A DNA stretch of 32,171 bases from a marine gamma proteobacterium HTCC2089 (GTDB taxonomy: Bacteria > Pseudomonadota > Gammaproteobacteria > Pseudomonadales > Azotimanducaceae). Where the stretch lies: positions 1 to 32,171 of the forward strand of contig CAJJDH010000065.1 of NCBI GenBank assembly GCA_905182905.1. The letters are read 5' to 3'. Positions 1 to 23,215 of the stretch are shown here, in pieces; position 1 is the stretch's first letter; each line of letters opens with the position of its first letter. The position numbers and the translations under genes were made by a program. The notes under the pieces are model-generated. The model saw nothing but the letters and a program-made list of their open reading frames with translations. It was not told the DNA's origin and did no database searches.

Positions 1-303
1 GGTAGTGACTCTCGTAAAACAATCGCTGTAACTTTATAGTTGCCAACGACGAAAACTACGCACTAGCGGCCTAAAAAACCCGCTTACGTCCATGATTCGT
101 TTCTTGCTAGGAGAAATGGACGGCAAAACAGCAAGATCGCGCGGATACCTCGCCCGGGGTTGAACCGTTAAAACCAATCGGGATCGCAGAAAGTACCCTG
201 ACCGTCGGGTCACTGGACGCTAAATCAATAGACGGACCCTAAGCATGTAGAGCCAATAACGGCGAGCCAGCGGACGCGGGTTCAACTCCCGCCGCCTCCA
301 CCA
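1..303 (+). ncRNA. ssrA: tmRNA (transfer-messenger RNA), 5' end cut by the window edge
   Basis: This RNA rescues stalled ribosomes and tags the unfinished protein for proteolysis, working with SmpB. The tag reading frame is visible at 42-74: GCC AAC GAC GAA AAC TAC GCA CTA GCG GCC TAA, encoding ANDENYALAA, the same tag as in E. coli. The 3' end at about 279-303 is a T-arm (GGTTCAACTCCC) and acceptor strand ending in an encoded CCA. From resume codon to 3' end there are 262 nt, close to the E. coli spacing, so only some 50 to 90 nt of the 5' end are missing. A terminator follows at once. The 3' end of ssrA is a classic integration site for P4-type integrases, and an integrase relic lies just downstream. 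Confidence 0.97.
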
Positions 304-414: not shown

Positions 415-466
415 TTGGGGGCAACTATTGGGGGCAACTCCAGTCTTATGCTGTAGCTGCCCCCAA
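415..466. repeat. Short direct and inverted repeats before the integrase relic
   Basis: TTGGGGGCAACT occurs twice in tandem (415-426 and 428-439). A near-inverted copy, AGCTGCCCCCAA, ends at the ATG of the integrase relic (455-466). Such repeats between an att site and an integrase gene may be integrase arm-binding or autoregulatory sites; that role is inference. Confidence 0.55.
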
Positions 467-840
467 TGACACTTACATCCTTAGCAGTTAAACAAGCCCA
501 ACCCGTGGACAAAGCGAAACCTCTTTATGACGAGAGGGGCCTCTACCTTGAAATCTCGCCTGCTGGCGGGAAATGGTGGCGGCTTAAATATCGTTTTGCC
601 GGTGAAGAGAAGCGTTTGTCTCTTGGCGTCTATCCAGATATCGGCCTAAAGGAGGCGAGAGCCGCCCGTGATGGGGCACAAAGACTGGTTGCTCAAGGTG
701 TGGCCCCAGCGCAAGACGCAAAGAAATCAGATGACAGCGCGTCGCTGATGCTGAGAACTCTTTCGAAGTCGTTGCGAGAGAGTGGTTCCAGAAACAAGCA
801 CCTATCTGGTCAGAATTTCACCAGAAGAACGTTATCAGCA
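466..840 (+). pseudogene. P4-type tyrosine integrase, frameshifted and truncated relic
   Basis: The first 90 or so residues match the N-terminal arm-binding domain (DUF4102) of P4-family integrases: LYLEISPAGGKWWRLKYRF, then EKRLSLGVYPDIGLKEAR. Around 730-750 the conserved sequence moves into another frame, where it continues AENSFEVVAREWFQKQ and then IWSEFHQKNVIS. That shift needs loss of one base or gain of two. Integrase similarity stops near 840, so the core-binding remainder and the whole catalytic domain (R...HxxR...Y) are absent. In frame 1 the reading runs on to a stop at 954 as nonsense. Its position just downstream of ssrA and in the same direction is the standard arrangement for an element integrated in ssrA. 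I read it as the scar of a lost or decayed island. No second copy of the ssrA 3' end was noticed in the window. Confidence 0.85.
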
Positions 841-1252
841 AATCTGGTTCTCGGCTTTGCCAAACACCGCACCACGTCCCAGATAATTGGATGCATCGAA
901 ATATCAATATGGCCGAGGCAGCGAAGCGAATCTGTTTGCCTAATAAGGGCCTGAGCACGGAGCAACTAGTTACGTTATTGAACCTTTCTGTCATTGGCTG
1001 TAAGCGAGGGTGCAAAGGCTCGGTCGAGTACAAAGAGCGCATTGTCAATGTCGTCACATTATTTTTTGGCGGATTGATAGTCTAATTTCAACCTGGGTCG
1101 CTTGGTTGTATCGCAACCATTTTTCCGCATCAAAGTAGCAAGCGCGAAAACGAGGCGAACTTGTATTCCTATAAATTTCTATACTCGCTAAAGTTCACAC
1201 TTCTAATTTGCAGGTTTTGCTTGTGTACGAAACATTGATTGGAGAACACTAG
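841..1252. other. Stretch without a recognisable gene between the integrase relic and the MATE gene
   Basis: The frame that carries the shifted integrase stays open to about 1085, but its translation (containing MHRNINMAEAAKRICLP) resembles nothing I know. It is probably fused junk left by deletion of the integrated element. The last 160 bases are AT-richer and probably hold the promoter of the MATE gene. I could not pick convincing -35 and -10 boxes. Confidence 0.4.
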
Positions 1253-12170: not shown

Positions 12171-12851
12171 ATGTTAGACCCGAACGATTACGTAGGCGTC
12201 ACTTTCTGGATTATCTCGGCAGCGATGGTTGCCGCAACTTATTTTTTCACTGTTGAACGCGACCGCGCTGAAGGCAAGTGGAAAACATCTCTAACCGTTG
12301 CCGCCATGGTAACCGGTATTGCCGCGATTCATTACTTCTACATGCGAGGAGTTTGGATTGATACAGGTGCAAGTCCTACCGTATTCCGATACGTGGACTG
12401 GCTATTAACTGTGCCGCTGCAAATCGTAGAGTTCTATCTGATTCTTGCAGCAATCGCTGTAGTCCGAGCAGCCCTATTCTGGAAACTTTTGATCGCTTCA
12501 CTTGTGATGTTGATATTTGGTTATCTAGGCGAAGTTGGTGCTATGGAATACTGGCTCGCATTTACTATCGGCATGGCGGGATGGTTATACATCATCTACG
12601 AAATCTTTATCGGTGAAGCTAGCCAGATAAGCGCGAGCCAAGGTACTGCTGCAAGCCAAAGTGCGTTCAACGCATTGCGGTTGATCGTGACCGTAGGCTG
12701 GGCAATCTACCCGATCGGCTACGTTCTAGGTGCTGGCGCCGATGGTGCTGCGGGCCTAAACATTGTGTACAACCTTGCTGACTTTGTTAACAAGATTGCA
12801 TTCGGTGTAGTGATCTGGGCTGCTGCGACGTCTTCGTCTGAAAAAGCCTAA
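12171..12851 (+). CDS. Proteorhodopsin, light-driven proton pump, blue-tuned
   Basis: This seven-helix inner-membrane protein (226 residues) binds retinal and pumps protons outward in light. Numbering here with SAR86 numbering in brackets: the proton acceptor is D76 (97), the proton donor E87 (108), the counter-ion partner H54 (75), and the Schiff-base lysine K208 (231) in NLADFVNKIAFG. The core signature is RYVDWLLTVPLQIVEFYLIL. The spectral-tuning residue (105) is Q84, the glutamine of blue-absorbing forms; green forms have Leu or Met. The D-T-E triad (D76, T80, E87) marks a proton pump rather than a sodium (NDQ) or chloride type. No separate signal peptide precedes helix 1; the protein begins MLDPNDYVG. 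The ribosome site is very strong (AGGAGAGAGG). Retinal comes from the adjacent carotenoid genes. Confidence 0.97.
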   Translation: MLDPNDYVGVTFWIISAAMVAATYFFTVERDRAEGKWKTSLTVAAMVTGIAAIHYFYMRGVWIDTGASPTVFRYVDWLLTVPLQIVEFYLILAAIAVVRAALFWKLLIASLVMLIFGYLGEVGAMEYWLAFTIGMAGWLYIIYEIFIGEASQISASQGTAASQSAFNALRLIVTVGWAIYPIGYVLGAGADGAAGLNIVYNLADFVNKIAFGVVIWAAATSSSEKA

Positions 12852-12875
12852 AATCGCCACAGCGCGATAATTTTG

Positions 12876-12903
12876 GTACTGCGGGGCGCCTGCCTCGCAG
12901 TAC
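12876..12903 (+). terminator. Strong hairpin between the opsin and the carotenoid genes
   Basis: GTACTGCG / CGCAGTAC closes an inner G-GGC / GCC-T, giving about 12 pairs with one G-U and loop GCCT. TAATTTC follows. It starts 25 bases after the opsin stop and should end most opsin transcripts, perhaps with some readthrough into crtE. Confidence 0.65.
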
Positions 12904-12965
12904 TAATTTCTACTCAAACCTTTTAATCGTATTTGCCAATTCATAGCAATAGAGTTGGGAGGAAA

Positions 12966-13973
12966 ATGCACACGACCGAGCTCAACCTCCGCCTTGACCA
13001 AGCTATACATCGCTATGGAGAAAATGCAGGAGCTCTAACACCAGCATCTCGGCATCATTTAGCGACTCCGGGCAAGCGCACGAGATCTCGCCTTTTATTC
13101 ACAGCATCTCCTTCACCTAAAAATATCGAATTACTTGTGCATGCAGCCGCTGCGGTGGAACTCATACATGAAGCCTCAATTGTCCATGACGACATCCAAG
13201 ATCGCACCGATGTACGGCGCGGCAATACATCTGTTTGGAAAGAATTTGGTGCCAACACAGCTTTATTGTTAGGCGATCATCTTGTTTCAGCAGCTTTTCG
13301 CGCCATTGCAGAGGTGGATACAGCACCAGGACTCCAAGGCAAGCTTTTCATAATGCTATCCCAAGCAATTAGCAAAGCCGCATCCGGGCAACACCTACAA
13401 TTGTCTGCCGACTACTTAAGCCATGACCTTCAAACAACCTATAACAACGTAGCTATTAGTAAAACCGGTGCATTCATCGCACTGCCATTACAGTTTTCAA
13501 ATCTACTAGGCTACGAAGAAATTTTAGATCCAGAACCGGCGCGCAAATGCGGGGAACAACTTGGATTTGCTTATCAAATCCTTGACGACCTGCGTCCGTT
13601 TCTGGATCCAACTACTTTAGCCACTGATGAAGATATGTTGGATCGCATCGTAACTGCCCCTGTGGCGGCCATGCATACACTCTCGCCCGACCGAGACCCC
13701 TTCACAGCGCTACTGCAACAACAGCAACTGCGAGATTCCGCTGTAGAGCTGTGCAAATCATGGCTGAGTGAAGCCCTACTAGAGGCCACCCAATTCGCCT
13801 CTCAGCTACCAGAGCATAGTGGCGCAGTGATCAGCCAATTCATCGAAACAACATTTACAGCCCACACTACTGAGAACAACGAAAGCCCTCTTACTACTAA
13901 GAGTAGCCAACTCCTGATAAGTGAAGGACGCTACAAGCCTTGGCGAGTCCAAGGCAACACAAGCTCGATATGA
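12966..13973 (+). CDS. crtE: Geranylgeranyl diphosphate synthase (polyprenyl synthetase)
   Basis: This 335-residue cytoplasmic enzyme supplies the C20 diphosphate for carotenoid synthesis. The first aspartate-rich motif is DDIQD at 75-79, within LIHEASIVHDDIQDRTDVRRG. The substrate-binding GKRTR is at 36-40. The second motif, usually DDxxD, reads DDLRPFLD at 207-214, so its last aspartate is displaced. I chose the ATG at 12966 with GGGAGG just upstream (short spacing). An in-frame TTG at 12933 would add 11 residues and is less likely. The stop overlaps the start of crtI (ATGA). It is the first gene of the crtE-I-B-Y-blh run and lies behind the hairpin that follows the opsin gene. Confidence 0.92.
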   Translation: MHTTELNLRLDQAIHRYGENAGALTPASRHHLATPGKRTRSRLLFTASPSPKNIELLVHAAAAVELIHEASIVHDDIQDRTDVRRGNTSVWKEFGANTALLLGDHLVSAAFRAIAEVDTAPGLQGKLFIMLSQAISKAASGQHLQLSADYLSHDLQTTYNNVAISKTGAFIALPLQFSNLLGYEEILDPEPARKCGEQLGFAYQILDDLRPFLDPTTLATDEDMLDRIVTAPVAAMHTLSPDRDPFTALLQQQQLRDSAVELCKSWLSEALLEATQFASQLPEHSGAVISQFIETTFTAHTTENNESPLTTKSSQLLISEGRYKPWRVQGNTSSI

Positions 13974-15466
13974 AGAAACAAGTTATTGTCATAGGTAGTG
14001 GTTTCGGTGGCATCGCCAGCGCCTTGCGGGCACGTAAGCTGGGCTTTGAAGTCACGTTACTTGAGCGACTAGATCAACTAGGCGGCAGAGCGCAGACTTT
14101 CCAACAAGAGGGTTTTGTATTTGATGCAGGCCCTACCGTTATCACCGCACCGTTTTTATTTAATGAACTGTTCGAGTTATTTGACCGAGACATAGCAGAT
14201 TATGTCGACATGATGCCGGTTACGCCCTGGTATCGCTATGAATTCAACGATGGCACTCATCTGAACTATGGTGGTAGCGTCGAAGATACGCTAACTGAGA
14301 TTAGCCGCATTAACCCTGAAGATGCCGAAGGCTATAAAAAACTTTTAGCTCACTCGGAAAAAATCTTTGATGTAGGTTTCACCCAGCTTGCACATGTGCC
14401 TTTCAACAACTTTTGGTTCATGCTCAAGCAAGTGCCTGACCTTATACGCTTGGGGTGCTATCGCACAGTTTGGCAATTTACCAAACGTTACCTTAAAGAC
14501 GATCGCTTAAGACGGGCCTTCAGCATCCAACCTTTGTTGGTGGGCGGTAATCCATTTACCACCACCAGTATTTATTCGTTGATTCATTATCTGGAACGAC
14601 GTTGGGGAGTGCATTATCCGCGCGGTGGCACTGGCGCATTGGTCGAAGCGTTAGCAAAACTAATGCAGGAAGTGGGAATAGATGTCCAGTTGGCACAGGA
14701 TGTAGAAAAAATCCATGTCGAAGACAACATAGCTAAAGCCGTATCGTTAGCGGATGGACGTACACTGACAGCAGATATAATAATTTCTAATGGTGACCCC
14801 GCCCACACCTATAAGAACCTAATAGCTCAAGAGCAACGTAAAACCTGGACAGACAAACGCATAGATAAACTTAAATACTCTATGGGTCTTTACGTACTCT
14901 ATTTCGGCACCAACAAAAAGTACGAGAGTGTGGAGCACCATACGATAGTATTTGGCGACGAGTACCAAACGCTGTTGCAGCGAATATTTGCCGGTGGCGA
15001 AGCTGGCGACGACTTAAGCTTATACTTGCATCGACCAACAGCCACCGACCCAAACCTAGCGCCAGAAGGCAAAGATACGTTCTACGTGCTAGCCCCTGTA
15101 CCCAACCTGCAAAGAGATGATTGGGAGAGTGTTAAAGCCGGCGTAAAAGAGCGGGTGCTGGACATTCTAGAAGAGCGTATTTTGCCTAATTTGCGCGATA
15201 ATCTAGAAGTCTGCTTTGACTTCGACCCAGCAGACTTCCAAAGCCAGTACAAATCACAATGGGGAGCGGGATTTTCAATAGCACCGATTTTTACCCAGTC
15301 CGCGTTCTTCCGCTTTCACAATCGCTCGGAAGATTTCTCTAACCTCTATTTTGTCGGAGCTGGCACGCACCCTGGAGCAGGTGTTCCGGGAGTACTTAGC
15401 TCGGCTAAAGTAATCGAAAATTTACTCTTGCAAGACCACCCAGCAAATAGGGAAACGTCGCCATGA
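13970..15466 (+). CDS. crtI: Phytoene desaturase
   Basis: This 498-residue FAD-dependent enzyme turns phytoene into lycopene by successive desaturations at the membrane. The N-terminal dinucleotide fold is VIVIGSGFGGIASALRARKLG, with GxGxxG at 9-14, followed by LLERLDQLGGRAQTF. The C-terminal bacterial-type signature is NLYFVGAGTHPGAGVPGVLSSAK. Length and motifs are typical of bacterial CrtI. The ATG at 13970 overlaps the crtE stop by four bases, indicating translational coupling; an upstream in-frame TTG (13940) would lie deep inside crtE and is rejected. Its own stop overlaps the crtB start in the same way. Confidence 0.96.
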   Translation: MKKQVIVIGSGFGGIASALRARKLGFEVTLLERLDQLGGRAQTFQQEGFVFDAGPTVITAPFLFNELFELFDRDIADYVDMMPVTPWYRYEFNDGTHLNYGGSVEDTLTEISRINPEDAEGYKKLLAHSEKIFDVGFTQLAHVPFNNFWFMLKQVPDLIRLGCYRTVWQFTKRYLKDDRLRRAFSIQPLLVGGNPFTTTSIYSLIHYLERRWGVHYPRGGTGALVEALAKLMQEVGIDVQLAQDVEKIHVEDNIAKAVSLADGRTLTADIIISNGDPAHTYKNLIAQEQRKTWTDKRIDKLKYSMGLYVLYFGTNKKYESVEHHTIVFGDEYQTLLQRIFAGGEAGDDLSLYLHRPTATDPNLAPEGKDTFYVLAPVPNLQRDDWESVKAGVKERVLDILEERILPNLRDNLEVCFDFDPADFQSQYKSQWGAGFSIAPIFTQSAFFRFHNRSEDFSNLYFVGAGTHPGAGVPGVLSSAKVIENLLLQDHPANRETSP

Positions 15467-16380
15467 ATCGGCAATTAGTTGAGGCTAAAGAAACCTTTAG
15501 AGCTAATGCAAAATCCTTTGCACTAGCAGCGCGATTTCTCAATAGAGATCGATACGATGCTGTCGCGCGACTCTATGCATTTTGTAGACATATAGACGAT
15601 CTCGCTGACACTGGCGCACCCGGCACTAACAATGAAGCCCTGAAGTCGCTACGCCAAGATATTTGCGCGGGCATGAGCTATGACCCCCTTGTACATGACT
15701 TGCTGCAACTTAAGGGTGACCACGACATTCCAACGCAGCTACTACTGGATTTTATTGACGCAATAATTGAAGACCAGTACCCACGTGAGTTACAGGCAGT
15801 AGACGACCTTGTGCGATTTTCATATGGGGTAGCTTCAACTGTTGGACTAATGATGTGCCATATTTTTGACGTGCGTAATCCACGCGCATTTCCGTTTGCA
15901 ATAGACCTTGGTATTGCTATGCAAATCAGCAATATCAGTCGGGATATTTTGGAAGACGCCCACCGCGACCGCATCTATATTCCGGCGGAACTACTAAAAA
16001 CTCCCGTCACATGCGAAGGATTGATCAACGGTGACCCAGCAATGCGCGCAAGTGCTTACCAAGGCGCTATGGAGTTATTGTTGATGGCTGACCAATACTA
16101 TGACAGTGCAAAAGCGGGTTATGGCTATTTGCCGAGGACGGTCCGACATACCATAAAAATTGCGGCCCGACTTTATCAGGCAATCGGCGATAAAGTCAGA
16201 ACTTCGCCTAGCACCTATTGGAAGCAACGCAGCGTGGTATCGCGACGCAGAAAATGCTCCTTGGTTTTACAAATGTTCTGGCAGCGCTTGCACGACGGTT
16301 CTAGCACGTTGTTAGTTGGCAAAGTTAATCACAGGCATCATCTCCATAAGGCTTTGGATAAAAGAAATTTCTCTGCGTAG
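15463..16380 (+). CDS. crtB: Phytoene synthase
   Basis: This 305-residue squalene/phytoene synthase-family enzyme joins two geranylgeranyl diphosphates to make phytoene, the first committed carotenoid step. Both metal-binding aspartate motifs are intact: DDLAD at 45-49 (YAFCRHIDDLADTG) and DILED at 161-165 (ISNISRDILEDAHRDRIYIP). The start overlaps the crtI stop by four bases (ATGA), and the stop TAG directly abuts the crtY ATG. The order synthase after desaturase is common in proteorhodopsin-linked clusters. Confidence 0.96.
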   Translation: MNRQLVEAKETFRANAKSFALAARFLNRDRYDAVARLYAFCRHIDDLADTGAPGTNNEALKSLRQDICAGMSYDPLVHDLLQLKGDHDIPTQLLLDFIDAIIEDQYPRELQAVDDLVRFSYGVASTVGLMMCHIFDVRNPRAFPFAIDLGIAMQISNISRDILEDAHRDRIYIPAELLKTPVTCEGLINGDPAMRASAYQGAMELLLMADQYYDSAKAGYGYLPRTVRHTIKIAARLYQAIGDKVRTSPSTYWKQRSVVSRRRKCSLVLQMFWQRLHDGSSTLLVGKVNHRHHLHKALDKRNFSA

Positions 16381-17544
16381 ATGGAACAGGTGAAAAACGA
16401 ACAGAGTGCTGATGTAGTCATCCTTGGCGGGGGCATGAGCGGACTAGCACTAGCCTGCCAAATAGCTAACTACAATGAACAGCACCCTGATGAGAGCAAA
16501 ACCGCTGTCGTTGTTGAGCCTAGGAGTAACTACCAGCGCGACAAAACTTGGTGTTTTTGGCAACACCAACCAACACCGTTTGATAGGGCTATTACGCATC
16601 AATGGCACCGTTGGCAGGTATGCGCAAACGGCCGAACTCACACCAGCGAATATAGCCAAGTTCCCTACGTACGCGTCGATAGCGGTCACTACTACCATAT
16701 CGCACAGCAGCAGCTGGCTAAATCTGAGTCAGTTAGTCTAATCACGGGTAATTCAGCGAGCAAAATACTGGTTTGCGATAAGCAAATAGGTGTCCAGTGC
16801 GAGGCGCTGAAAATAACAGCAGAGTTTGCCTACGACACTCGACCCAAGAATATCCCCGGCAACACCTTGTTACAGCATTTTGTTGGATGGGAAATTACCA
16901 CTGACTACGATGCCTTCGACCCCAACATTGTCACGTTAATGGATTTTCAAGTCACCCAAGCCAATGATATTCACTTCTTCTATATTTTGCCTTTCGATAA
17001 AAGGCATGCGTTAGTCGAAACCACGCATTTTTCCAAAACCTTATTAACTGAAGACGCCTACGCTGAAGAACTCAGTGACTATCTGAGCGGCTCACTGGGA
17101 CTTGCCAGTTGGCACATCCAAAACCAAGAGCAGGGTGTTATTCCAATGCCGCAAAAGTCCGCTTCGCTAACGAGGCGAGAACACTTCAACGTGGTTCCAT
17201 TTGGTCTGCATAGCGATACACCAAGACCGTCGACAGGTTATTGCTATCCACATGCCCAAAGCCAAGCCTTAGAGCACGTACTAAACCTCTTTGCCAACAA
17301 GCCACCTAAAGCAGCACGCAACTTCTTTGTTCGTTGGCTAGACCAGATATTTATCAGTTTTTTGGAGCACCACCCAGAACAAGCGGCCAGCACTTTTTTC
17401 ACTTTGTTTGAGCAAGTACCAACACAAGTGTTGATTAGATTTTTGGGCGACAACGCCAAGCCATTCGACTACCTTAAAGTCATTATGGCTATGCCCAAAA
17501 TACCATTTGTCCGTGAAGCAGTGCGCAGTGTTAGCAACCCTTAA
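16381..17544 (+). CDS. crtY: Lycopene beta-cyclase
   Basis: This 387-residue flavoprotein of the CrtY type closes both beta rings of lycopene to give beta-carotene. An N-terminal dinucleotide fold is visible (DVVILGGGMSGLALACQIA, glycines at 16-21). Family landmarks follow: KTWCFWQHQPTPFD near 55-68, YDTRP near 151-155, LLQHFVGWEI near 162-171, and LPFDKRHALVETTHFS near 202-217. It starts on the base after the crtB stop, and its 3' end overlaps the blh gene. No ribosome site of its own is clear, which suggests translational coupling. Confidence 0.94.
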   Translation: MEQVKNEQSADVVILGGGMSGLALACQIANYNEQHPDESKTAVVVEPRSNYQRDKTWCFWQHQPTPFDRAITHQWHRWQVCANGRTHTSEYSQVPYVRVDSGHYYHIAQQQLAKSESVSLITGNSASKILVCDKQIGVQCEALKITAEFAYDTRPKNIPGNTLLQHFVGWEITTDYDAFDPNIVTLMDFQVTQANDIHFFYILPFDKRHALVETTHFSKTLLTEDAYAEELSDYLSGSLGLASWHIQNQEQGVIPMPQKSASLTRREHFNVVPFGLHSDTPRPSTGYCYPHAQSQALEHVLNLFANKPPKAARNFFVRWLDQIFISFLEHHPEQAASTFFTLFEQVPTQVLIRFLGDNAKPFDYLKVIMAMPKIPFVREAVRSVSNP

Positions 17545-18406
17545 ACCGTACACCACGTTTTTAGTCTGTTGCGCGGTAGCTGCCGCCCTAGGGGTGTCCT
17601 TCGGCACGGAATATAACTGGCTTGTTGCTGGGTGCTGCCTAGTCATTCTTGTGGCAGGTTTACCTCACGGTGCATTCGATCTTTACATCCTTGCGGATTT
17701 ATTCAAAGGCAGGAGCTTCTTCTGGGCAATAGTGGGTTATCTTGCACTAATCATCTTAACCGTATTGCTTTGGTGGTTGGCTCCACAACTATTTCTCATT
17801 GGCTTTTTAAGCTATTCCGCCTTTCATTTTGGGGATTCGGACTGGCCTGCAGACTCCGTGGTAAATAGGCTTGGGTGGGGTAGCGCAATAGTCACACTGC
17901 CATGCTTGCTAGCACCCGACCAGGTCACCGCTCTTTTCACCATTGTTCTCAATACGCCAAGTATGCCGCTAATTACCGACGTATTAGGCTTTATAGCAAT
18001 TCTCGCAACCCTCTCAAGCTGTATTGAATTTGCATCACGCAAAATCAATACCTGCACACTCATCCTTTTGTCGTTTTACTCAACCGTGTGTTTTTTTGCC
18101 GGCGCTATTGTGGCATTCACCTGCTACTTCGCTTTTTTACATGGGCCCCACCACCTTCAGCGTTGGCGCTTAAAATTACCCAACAAAGGCAATTTGCAAA
18201 TATATTTGGTTAGCTTTGGTGTACTAGCGACGATACTCTTGCTCGGAGTATTCACGGTGAATGGTGAGCACACTCAGACAAAAGATCTGGCCAACGCTAT
18301 TGATGCGACAGTGGTGCGTTACACTTTCGTTGCGCTTGCAGCGTTAACAGTACCCCACATGGTCTACTTATTTGTCGCCGACCACTTAAGTCATAAAGAG
18401 ATTTAG
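17513..18406 (+). CDS. blh: Beta-carotene 15,15'-dioxygenase, Brp/Blh family
   Basis: This integral membrane enzyme of about 297 residues cleaves beta-carotene into two retinals, the chromophore of the opsin upstream. The iron-ligand histidine motifs of the family are present in order: GLPHGAFDLYIL, SAFHFGDSDWP, FLHGPHHLQRW and a late VPHMVYLFVADH. Most of the remainder is hydrophobic helix. The start is uncertain: the frame opens with TTG at 17507, then GTG at 17513 and GTG at 17528, all inside the end of crtY. I use GTG 17513; none has a strong ribosome site, so coupling to crtY is likely. It ends the retinal operon; no idi gene follows. Confidence 0.93.
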   Translation: MKQCAVLATLKPYTTFLVCCAVAAALGVSFGTEYNWLVAGCCLVILVAGLPHGAFDLYILADLFKGRSFFWAIVGYLALIILTVLLWWLAPQLFLIGFLSYSAFHFGDSDWPADSVVNRLGWGSAIVTLPCLLAPDQVTALFTIVLNTPSMPLITDVLGFIAILATLSSCIEFASRKINTCTLILLSFYSTVCFFAGAIVAFTCYFAFLHGPHHLQRWRLKLPNKGNLQIYLVSFGVLATILLLGVFTVNGEHTQTKDLANAIDATVVRYTFVALAALTVPHMVYLFVADHLSHKEI

Positions 18407-22099: not shown

Positions 22100-23215
22100 C
22101 TATCCCCGAACTTCATTAGCAAACGTTGTATAGACCTTGCGAATGCCGAGAACTGCAATCATCAAATATAAGGCCAACGTACTCATAACCCAAGGCAAAG
22201 GTAATAGAGCAAAAGCTGTGATCCAGCAGGCTACAAATATACCTACCCTGCCCATCATTTTAGGAATACGGCGCATTGGGTCAATGCCATCACCCTGATA
22301 AGTAAATGCTCGAGGACGCAAGAACCAGCCATGAGCCATCAAAAGAATGACAAAGAGTAGAAAAGGCGGGCCTTTATCATTTGTAAATGTTGATTCATCA
22401 AGGTCTATATTCACAGATGAATCATCACCAAGAGCCCCTTGTATTTTCTCCCAAACATAAGATTCCGATGGCCGCCCGGCAGCGCCGCCTATGTTTTCCC
22501 GCGTAGGAATAGATTGCCATCGATAGAGTATACGTTCCGCACTTAGTGCTAATACGCCAGGCTGATAGAAGCCCTTGGGATGAGAAATCTCAAAGGCTGT
22601 GTCACGAGAGATAAACTCGTTAGATTCAGCGACACCTAAATCTAACATGCCATTTTCACGGGCAAGGTTAGCAATCTCTTGGTGTGGATCACCCACACAC
22701 TGAAAGGACAACTGCCAATCTTCCTGGGCTCTAGATGCCAGCGCCTGTGGTTCACTAGTGATGCCATACACTTCGCCGCCAGCAGCGCGAATAGCCTCAA
22801 CCACACCACCTTTTTCGTAGCCTCGTAACTCGAGGCGGCAAGGAGGTCACCAAAAACCGCGGTAAAACAGCAATACGGCAAAGGAGTGTTTATCAGTAAC
22901 TTCCGTCAACCACTGCTTTAGCGCCCCGGGAGGCGGGTCAAGTTCGGCGATAGGCGTAGTATTTTCCTCTAGGTTTATATCCACACTCTGAACTAATGGA
23001 TTATCACCTGAACCCGAGACCGTAAAAGTCCTCTGCAGGCACAGGCCTTCACCACACAGGATTAACCGAAGTTCCTGACCACTAGCAGCGTTCACTGGTG
23101 GGTCAATAATACCGGTCACTTCGAACGAGGCGCTTTCTTGAGTATTGAACCAAGCCAATGCTGCGGCCACTTCCATTTGTAACTCTTGAGGAATTGTTTC
23201 GAGAACCTTTGTCAT
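22100..23215 (-). CDS. Peroxiredoxin-like selenoprotein with UxxC centre and C-terminal membrane segments
   Basis: I read one 371-residue protein through the in-frame TGA at 22847-22849 as selenocysteine U123. The surrounding residues are LLFYRGFW-U-PPC, then RLELRGYEK; AhpC/TSA relatives have FYRGFWCPxC, so U123 replaces the peroxidatic cysteine and C126 would be the partner. Downstream the thioredoxin-like fold continues in the same frame without interruption: EAIRAAGGEVYGITSEPQ, then QLSFQCVGDPHQEIANLARE and KGFYQPGVLALSAERILYRW. Residues 1-110 form a separate domain I do not recognise. The C-terminal part has hydrophobic helices near 283-298, 324-340 and 342-357. A SECIS-like hairpin follows the TGA. 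The probable role is thiol/selenol reduction of peroxides at the membrane (inference). The ATG at 23215 has a weak ribosome site; M14 is an alternative. It would otherwise be annotated as two fragments, 22847-23215 and 22100-22804. Confidence 0.87.
22805..22849 (-). promoter_or_regulatory. Bacterial SECIS element directing selenocysteine at the TGA
   Basis: Counting from the TGA on the minus strand, GCCTCG and CGAGGC form a perfect 6-bp upper stem around the 5-nt loop AGTTA. The loop begins 16 bases after the TGA; in E. coli fdhF it begins 17 bases after, with loop AGGTCT. A G at the second loop position, followed by U, matches the bacterial SECIS pattern recognised by SelB. A lower stem pairs ACCTCCTT (its A being the A of TGA) with AAGGTGGT, leaving one T-T mismatch. 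The element is wholly within the coding region, as in bacteria generally. Confidence 0.82.

Follow-up and report, generated by a model that had tools for sequence, protein, structure and literature searches.

An in-frame TGA in a redoxin gene of a marine gammaproteobacterium as the probable selenocysteine codon of a three-module peroxiredoxin-like protein

Does a TGA codon in a redoxin gene of marine gamma proteobacterium HTCC2089 separate the remains of a broken gene, or is it read as selenocysteine (Sec) within a single functional one? The window analyzed here, a stretch of 32,171 nucleotides (contig CAJJDH010000065.1 of assembly GCA_905182905.1), yields two neighbouring open reading frames upon translation with Table 11, of 122 aa (23215-22847) and 234 aa (22804-22100). 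An earlier note on this DNA, which gave no strand, had proposed that the two form a split peroxiredoxin-like selenoprotein. The gene is read from the minus strand, and the proposal is borne out by conservation of the TGA column, a hairpin 3' of the TGA, Sec machinery and selection. From the ATG (23215-23213) to the TAG stop (22102-22100) the frame is open on both sides of the TGA, as the note had it, and forms one stretch of 371 codons including U123, with a single in-frame TGA in the context AVLLFYRGFW-U-PPCRLELRGY (FYRGFW-TGA-PPC). The fold similarity that was said to continue across the TGA does so: the Pfam AhpC-TSA model PF00578 crosses the junction (residues 109-183, E 2.5e-9, 37.6 bits against a cut-off of 26), whereas, taken separately, the downstream piece reaches 11.8 bits and no Pfam model matches the upstream one. 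Judged on sequence comparison, it is very probable that the gene encodes one selenoprotein of 371 residues with its TGA decoded as Sec, and the insertion of Sec at residue 123 in itself appears nearly certain. The features are collected in Table 1.

Table 1. Features of the redoxin gene in window coordinates, followed by the further TGA-containing AhpC/TSA genes of the host in contig coordinates.
Feature	Position	Strand	Basis or motif
Whole CDS	22100..23215	-	371 codons, Sec proposed at codon 123 (TGA), TAG stop; homologues full-length
In-frame TGA, proposed Sec codon 123	22847..22849	-	TGA/Cys column conservation
Proposed bSECIS hairpin GCCUCG-AGUUA-CGAGGC	22820..22836	-	fold, covariation, codon constraint, recoding null, Cys controls
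Cys126 codon, Sec123 partner in UxxC	22838..22840	-	invariant in 25-member alignment; aligns with peroxidatic Cys
AhpC/TSA redoxin part, residues 109-183	22667..22891	-	PF00578; model resembles PrxQ/BCP
N-terminal module, approximately residues 1-90, C54 and C59 (CxxxxC)	22946..23215	-	25-member alignment
C-terminal hydrophobic helix pair, approximately residues 313-364, proposed anchor	22124..22279	-	model, hydropathy
Further host TGA AhpC/TSA gene L122	G000:C89:10921-11319		WUPPC
Further host TGA AhpC/TSA gene L123	C104:9906-10295		WUPFC
Further host TGA AhpC/TSA gene L125	C74:22607-22996		WUPFC
Further host TGA AhpC/TSA gene L126	C25:17403-17768		WUPYC
Further host TGA AhpC/TSA gene L132	C73:12637-12978		WUGC

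A search of 40 genomes of the same genus gave matches in 26, with 42 rows that comprise 29 long-family and 13 weak ones. All 29 long-family rows, the window gene included, contain one internal TGA, which agrees with the earlier claim that its placement goes beyond chance; seven genomes have two long rows each, and for the 26 long rows accompanied by a locus the position of the TGA was examined. The weak rows (E 1.9e-5 to 8.9e-4) contain a TGA in 12 cases and no stop in G029:C22. Other stops are generally not scattered through the homologues, the exception being the copy at G030:C233 (L048, 180-1085), from a genome that is 69% complete, which has two TAGs besides the TGA. This copy is either decayed or the product of an assembly fault.

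The pattern extends beyond the genus. Scanning the species genome collection by pattern identified 11 loci with 58-66% identity, all with the TGA, at least three of which are the same records as in the genus genomes; their titles read Gammaproteobacteria, Pseudomonadales, K189A clade or, in one case, Myxococcales. The latter (L068, JAAZXM010000038.1), 58% identical, comes from a MAG that bears the label Myxococcales and may represent either horizontal transfer or a mis-binned contig. Among 390 sampled genomes of the order, ten matches were obtained in nine genomes from five genera (E 1e-12 or better), each with a single TGA. Samples of the class (369 genomes) and the phylum (398) gave 16 and 12 matches respectively, not counting the window gene and with one in common (E 1e-8 or better). 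These contain no stop, are confined to model positions 82-266 of 373, and have Cys at the TGA column in all 27 loci. Hence, every examined locus has either TGA or Cys at column 123. A full-length Cys form was not found in the genus, order, class or phylum searches, and a tblastn screen of plasmids gave no match; the search thresholds differ, such that weak Cys relatives within the order would go unlisted.

Decoding of UGA as Sec in bacteria involves a bSECIS hairpin, modelled in passages of a recent review as a 4-16 bp stem with a loop of 3-9 nt that has a G in its first two positions, a spacing of 16-37 nt and a minimum free energy of at most -7.5 kcal/mol (PMC13188914). Counting from the U of the UGA, nucleotides 1-30 fold into a hairpin at -9.3 kcal/mol that occupies nucleotides 14-30, has six base pairs and the loop AGUUA, and leaves 16 nt between the UGA and the apical loop, all within the limits as quoted there. 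Covariation was studied in 30 distinct N-free family sequences of 45 nt against 500 shuffles. Stem cells are paired in 97.8%, as compared to 28-51% in slid controls; 22 cells show changes on both sides (6.9 in shuffles) and covariation is scored at 0.296 (0.142 in shuffles), values that none of the 500 shuffles reaches. Variation is limited to two of the six pairs, so that the counts of doubly changed pairs (2/6, matched by 258/500 shuffles) and of further pair types (four, matched by 499/500) are not unusual. All six pairs form in 26 of the 30 sequences and five, with one mismatch, in the other four.

Since related sequences can outscore shuffles without any structure, evidence from codon usage matters. 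Changes at the second base of codon +5 go together with changes at the third, synonymous base of the Arg codon +8, and the stem and loop codons CGC, GAG and TTA/TTG occur in 33 of 33 genes, compared with 31%, 47% and 30% in the remainder of those genes. When the family was jointly recoded with synonymous codons, the mean number of pairs stayed at or below 4.33 in all 2000 draws, versus 5.87 observed. Among the 27 Cys homologues none makes all six pairs and one makes five. Folding energy by itself gives a modest signal (mean z -0.95, 31/35 below zero), so the argument for a SECIS element rests on covariation and codon constraint.

The host assembly (2.83 Mb in 125 contigs, 94.4% complete) contains selA (522.3 bits), selB (412.9 bits) and selD (256.1 bits), each above its cut-off, but the tRNA-Sec gene (selC) is not in the assembly. 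selA adjoins selB on contig C113. selD makes up the C-terminal portion of a frame of 732 aa, with CGGC in the region of the SelD active site; by eye the N-terminal part looks like an FAD oxidoreductase. Fusions of Ndh and SelD with CxxC are described for marine bacteria in a passage of PMC2398784. RF01852 detected no tRNA-Sec above its cut-off in the host assembly. Six RF01852 matches below the cut-off were assigned by ARAGORN to Trp, Cys, Ser, Arg, Ser and Leu tRNAs, and ARAGORN found no tRNA in the stretches around selA, selB and selD. An anticodon-arm pattern gave 514 and 525 matches versus 649 and 660 for the reversed control, hence no excess; one match near selB was rejected as it lies inside the reading frame of a hydrolase where no tRNA family matches.

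Elsewhere in the genus tRNA-Sec is found above the cut-off in 25 of 40 genomes, and for five loci drawn from these genomes ARAGORN reports tRNA-SeC with the anticodon tca. Its distance from a preceding block of selA or selB plus a hydrolase gene is 176, 192 and 192 bp in the three closest relatives. Contig C113 of the host ends, according to comparison by eye, in the last codons of that same hydrolase gene, just short of the site where the relatives have tRNA-Sec, and therefore an assembly gap is the likely cause of its absence. A different arrangement was seen at L083 (G037:C14:29000-38000), where, unlike in the closer relatives, tRNA-Sec is at approximately 3 kb from selB beside a flagellin-like frame.

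How else could an internal TGA be accounted for? In the standard code TGA terminates translation, and a nonsense mutation, a sequencing error or an assembly fault might have split an ordinary Cys redoxin gene; further stops are present in the G030:C233 relative. We regard this as extremely improbable, as the same TGA occurs in 29/29 long-family rows and 10/10 order matches, the hairpin covaries, and purifying selection acts on the codons before and after the TGA in four close pairs. By simple division of computed dN and dS, dN/dS amounts to approximately 0.09, 0.08, 0.23 and 0.11 after the TGA and to approximately 0.28, 0.12, 0.20 and 0.19 before it; the pairs window gene versus L059 and L043 versus L044 were left out since dS was saturated or not computable. 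Genes that flank the window gene are found again around it in L059, L060 and L062; most other loci compared do not share them. The open frame and the presence of TGA in several other redoxin genes of the host might also be explained if TGA were reassigned in this lineage to a standard amino acid, as in code 4. That can hardly be so, given that TGA is the terminal stop of 12 of the 33 long-family genes, that the residue directly before the in-frame TGA is encoded by TGG in 33/33, and that the host has selA, selB and selD.

UGA-reading tRNAs such as Cys suppressors exist, and one of these could insert Cys in a host whose assembly has no detected tRNA-Sec and whose gene has distant homologues with Cys at this position. 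With host selA and selB intact, a conserved hairpin, and tRNA-Sec(tca) in the closest relatives exactly where the host contig ends, this too is very improbable. A somewhat different idea grants the Sec form and adds a second functional product, a form of 122 residues that results from termination at the UGA, for instance at low selenium. The N-terminal module does lie before the TGA and is conserved, with C54 and C59 invariant. In the structural model, however, the TGA is found within the redoxin fold, after strand 112-118, and the short form would thus end in the middle of a domain, which makes a dual output unlikely.

What kind of protein would this be? PF00578 matches all 25 aligned members at E 0.01 or better, and U123-P-P-C126 as well as C54 and C59 are invariant in all 25. 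The TGA had been placed at the peroxidatic cysteine, a position that has to be corrected. When three host peroxiredoxins with Cys (FTGGC, FTPTC and FTPTC) serve as the reference, U123 coincides with the Thr of TxxC and C126 with the peroxidatic Cys, identically in two alignment modes. The Thr three residues before Cys or Sec that characterizes peroxiredoxins proper (TxxC/TxxU) is lacking, and by its sequence the site is of the thioredoxin-like UxxC type rather than a TxxU peroxiredoxin. An AlphaFold2 model with Cys in place of Sec (pLDDT 77.9, pTM 0.65) has BCP/PrxQ-type peroxiredoxins as its nearest structures in Foldseek (E 1.7e-4, target TM 0.64); ResA ranks lower. With E limited to 0.1, the family profile matched just three PDB sequences, all of ResA, the best one weakly at 0.051, and the single protein found nothing better than E 0.41 in a PDB sequence search. 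The model predicts helices at residues 313-337 and 340-364, and hydropathy windows of 1.5 or more start at residues 320-343. This C-terminal hydrophobic hairpin is likely a membrane anchor; with a signal peptide not apparent by eye, the protein would probably be anchored in the inner membrane with its redox domain in the cytoplasm.

Based on this anatomy and comparison, we propose that SelB loaded with Sec-tRNA binds the hairpin just 3' of the UGA, such that Sec would be inserted at residue 123 instead of termination. The product would combine an N-terminal domain with CxxxxC, a thioredoxin-fold AhpC/TSA domain and a C-terminal hydrophobic hairpin. It is most likely a selenol-based oxidoreductase, and a UxxC-type reduction of thiols or peroxides seems quite probable. 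Sec123 would attack a peroxide or disulfide, Cys126 would resolve it as a selenenylsulfide, and either thioredoxin or the C54/C59 pair, as a putative relay, would reset the enzyme. A more specific reading holds that this is a Sec-only family: a membrane-anchored selenoenzyme of three modules in marine Pseudomonadales that is full-length only with Sec, that has an internal electron relay from CxxxxC to Sec which cysteine cannot serve, and that stands among an expanded set of UxxC redox proteins in one genome. We consider this reading tentative and lean somewhat against it.

Peroxiredoxin-like (Prx-like) UXXC selenoproteins appear in a passage of the Sargasso Sea study (PMC1088965), Prx-like 1 is listed among marine selenoproteins in part of PMC2398784, and Table 1 of a 2026 review, in the portion available, places Prx-like thiol:disulfide oxidoreductase selenoproteins with UxxC or UxxU under PF00578 (PMC13188914). 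As there described, these share with the present family the AhpC/TSA domain, the thioredoxin-like UxxC, the occurrence in marine bacteria and the bSECIS after the UGA, whereas the N-terminal CxxxxC module and the C-terminal hydrophobic hairpin are added here. Prx-like 2 and Prx-like 3 from the GOS data resemble it in that a Prx-like domain is fused to a domain with conserved Cys, and are by their text description of the pfam04592 and pfam08534 types; Unknown_3, compared likewise by description, has three Cys with CxxC where the present family has two invariant Cys in CxxxxC (passages of PMC2398784). The Cys peroxiredoxin-like proteins of the 27 distant loci (FYRG-W-CPYC) have the redoxin region and the motif with Cys for Sec, but match model positions 82-266 only and lack the full N- and C-terminal modules. 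PrxQ/BCP peroxiredoxins resemble the central domain in its predicted fold (Foldseek E 1.7e-4), but their active site is TxxC whereas here Sec takes the position of Thr in UxxC. The SelL-related NCBIfam model NF040769 matches residues 109-181 weakly (E 0.011), its 15.4 bits falling far short of the cut-off of 120, and no NCBIfam model comes near its cut-off for the 371-residue protein.

No named family with the three-module layout was encountered in bacterial selenoprotein literature, as far as titles, the starts of abstracts and passages go (PMC13188914, PMC2398784, PMC9402790, PMC1088965, PMC12013277, PMC5029168, PMC9312934), and a literature search directed at K189A gave no papers. Prx-like UxxC selenoproteins are hence already known, and it is the three-part architecture, for which no full-length Cys form was found, that looks new. 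Some members may already be contained, unnamed, in published Prx-like clusters, from which the family is set apart here by description rather than by sequence.

Several other observations concern the host and the window. Six of the 15 AhpC/TSA matches in the host, the window gene among them, contain one TGA, and the motifs of the other five (Table 1) suggest that these are probably selenoproteins as well. Genus relatives have a small family of frames of approximately 165-178 aa with FYRGHW-TGA-PYC (L051, L052, L053 and L054), three of which fold a hairpin of 7 bp with a 3-nt loop at the same place past the TGA. Elsewhere on the plus strand of the window, a bacteriorhodopsin-like gene (PF01036) and a gene for beta-carotene dioxygenase (PF15461, 17507-18406) enclose genes that by eye are of carotenoid type, forming a retinal photosystem cluster at 12171-18406. 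A tmRNA gene that is cut at the window start (1-303, plus strand) is followed by a short integrase-like frame with Arm-DNA-bind_3 (466-954, plus strand), perhaps a remnant of an element that integrated at the tmRNA gene.

With its further TGA genes the host appears rich in Sec redox proteins. Standard gene calling would split a redox enzyme that is conserved among uncultured marine bacteria in two; read as one gene, it extends the Prx-like UxxC selenoproteins by a further domain architecture, and raises the question why all full-length members found carry Sec and the shorter relatives Cys.
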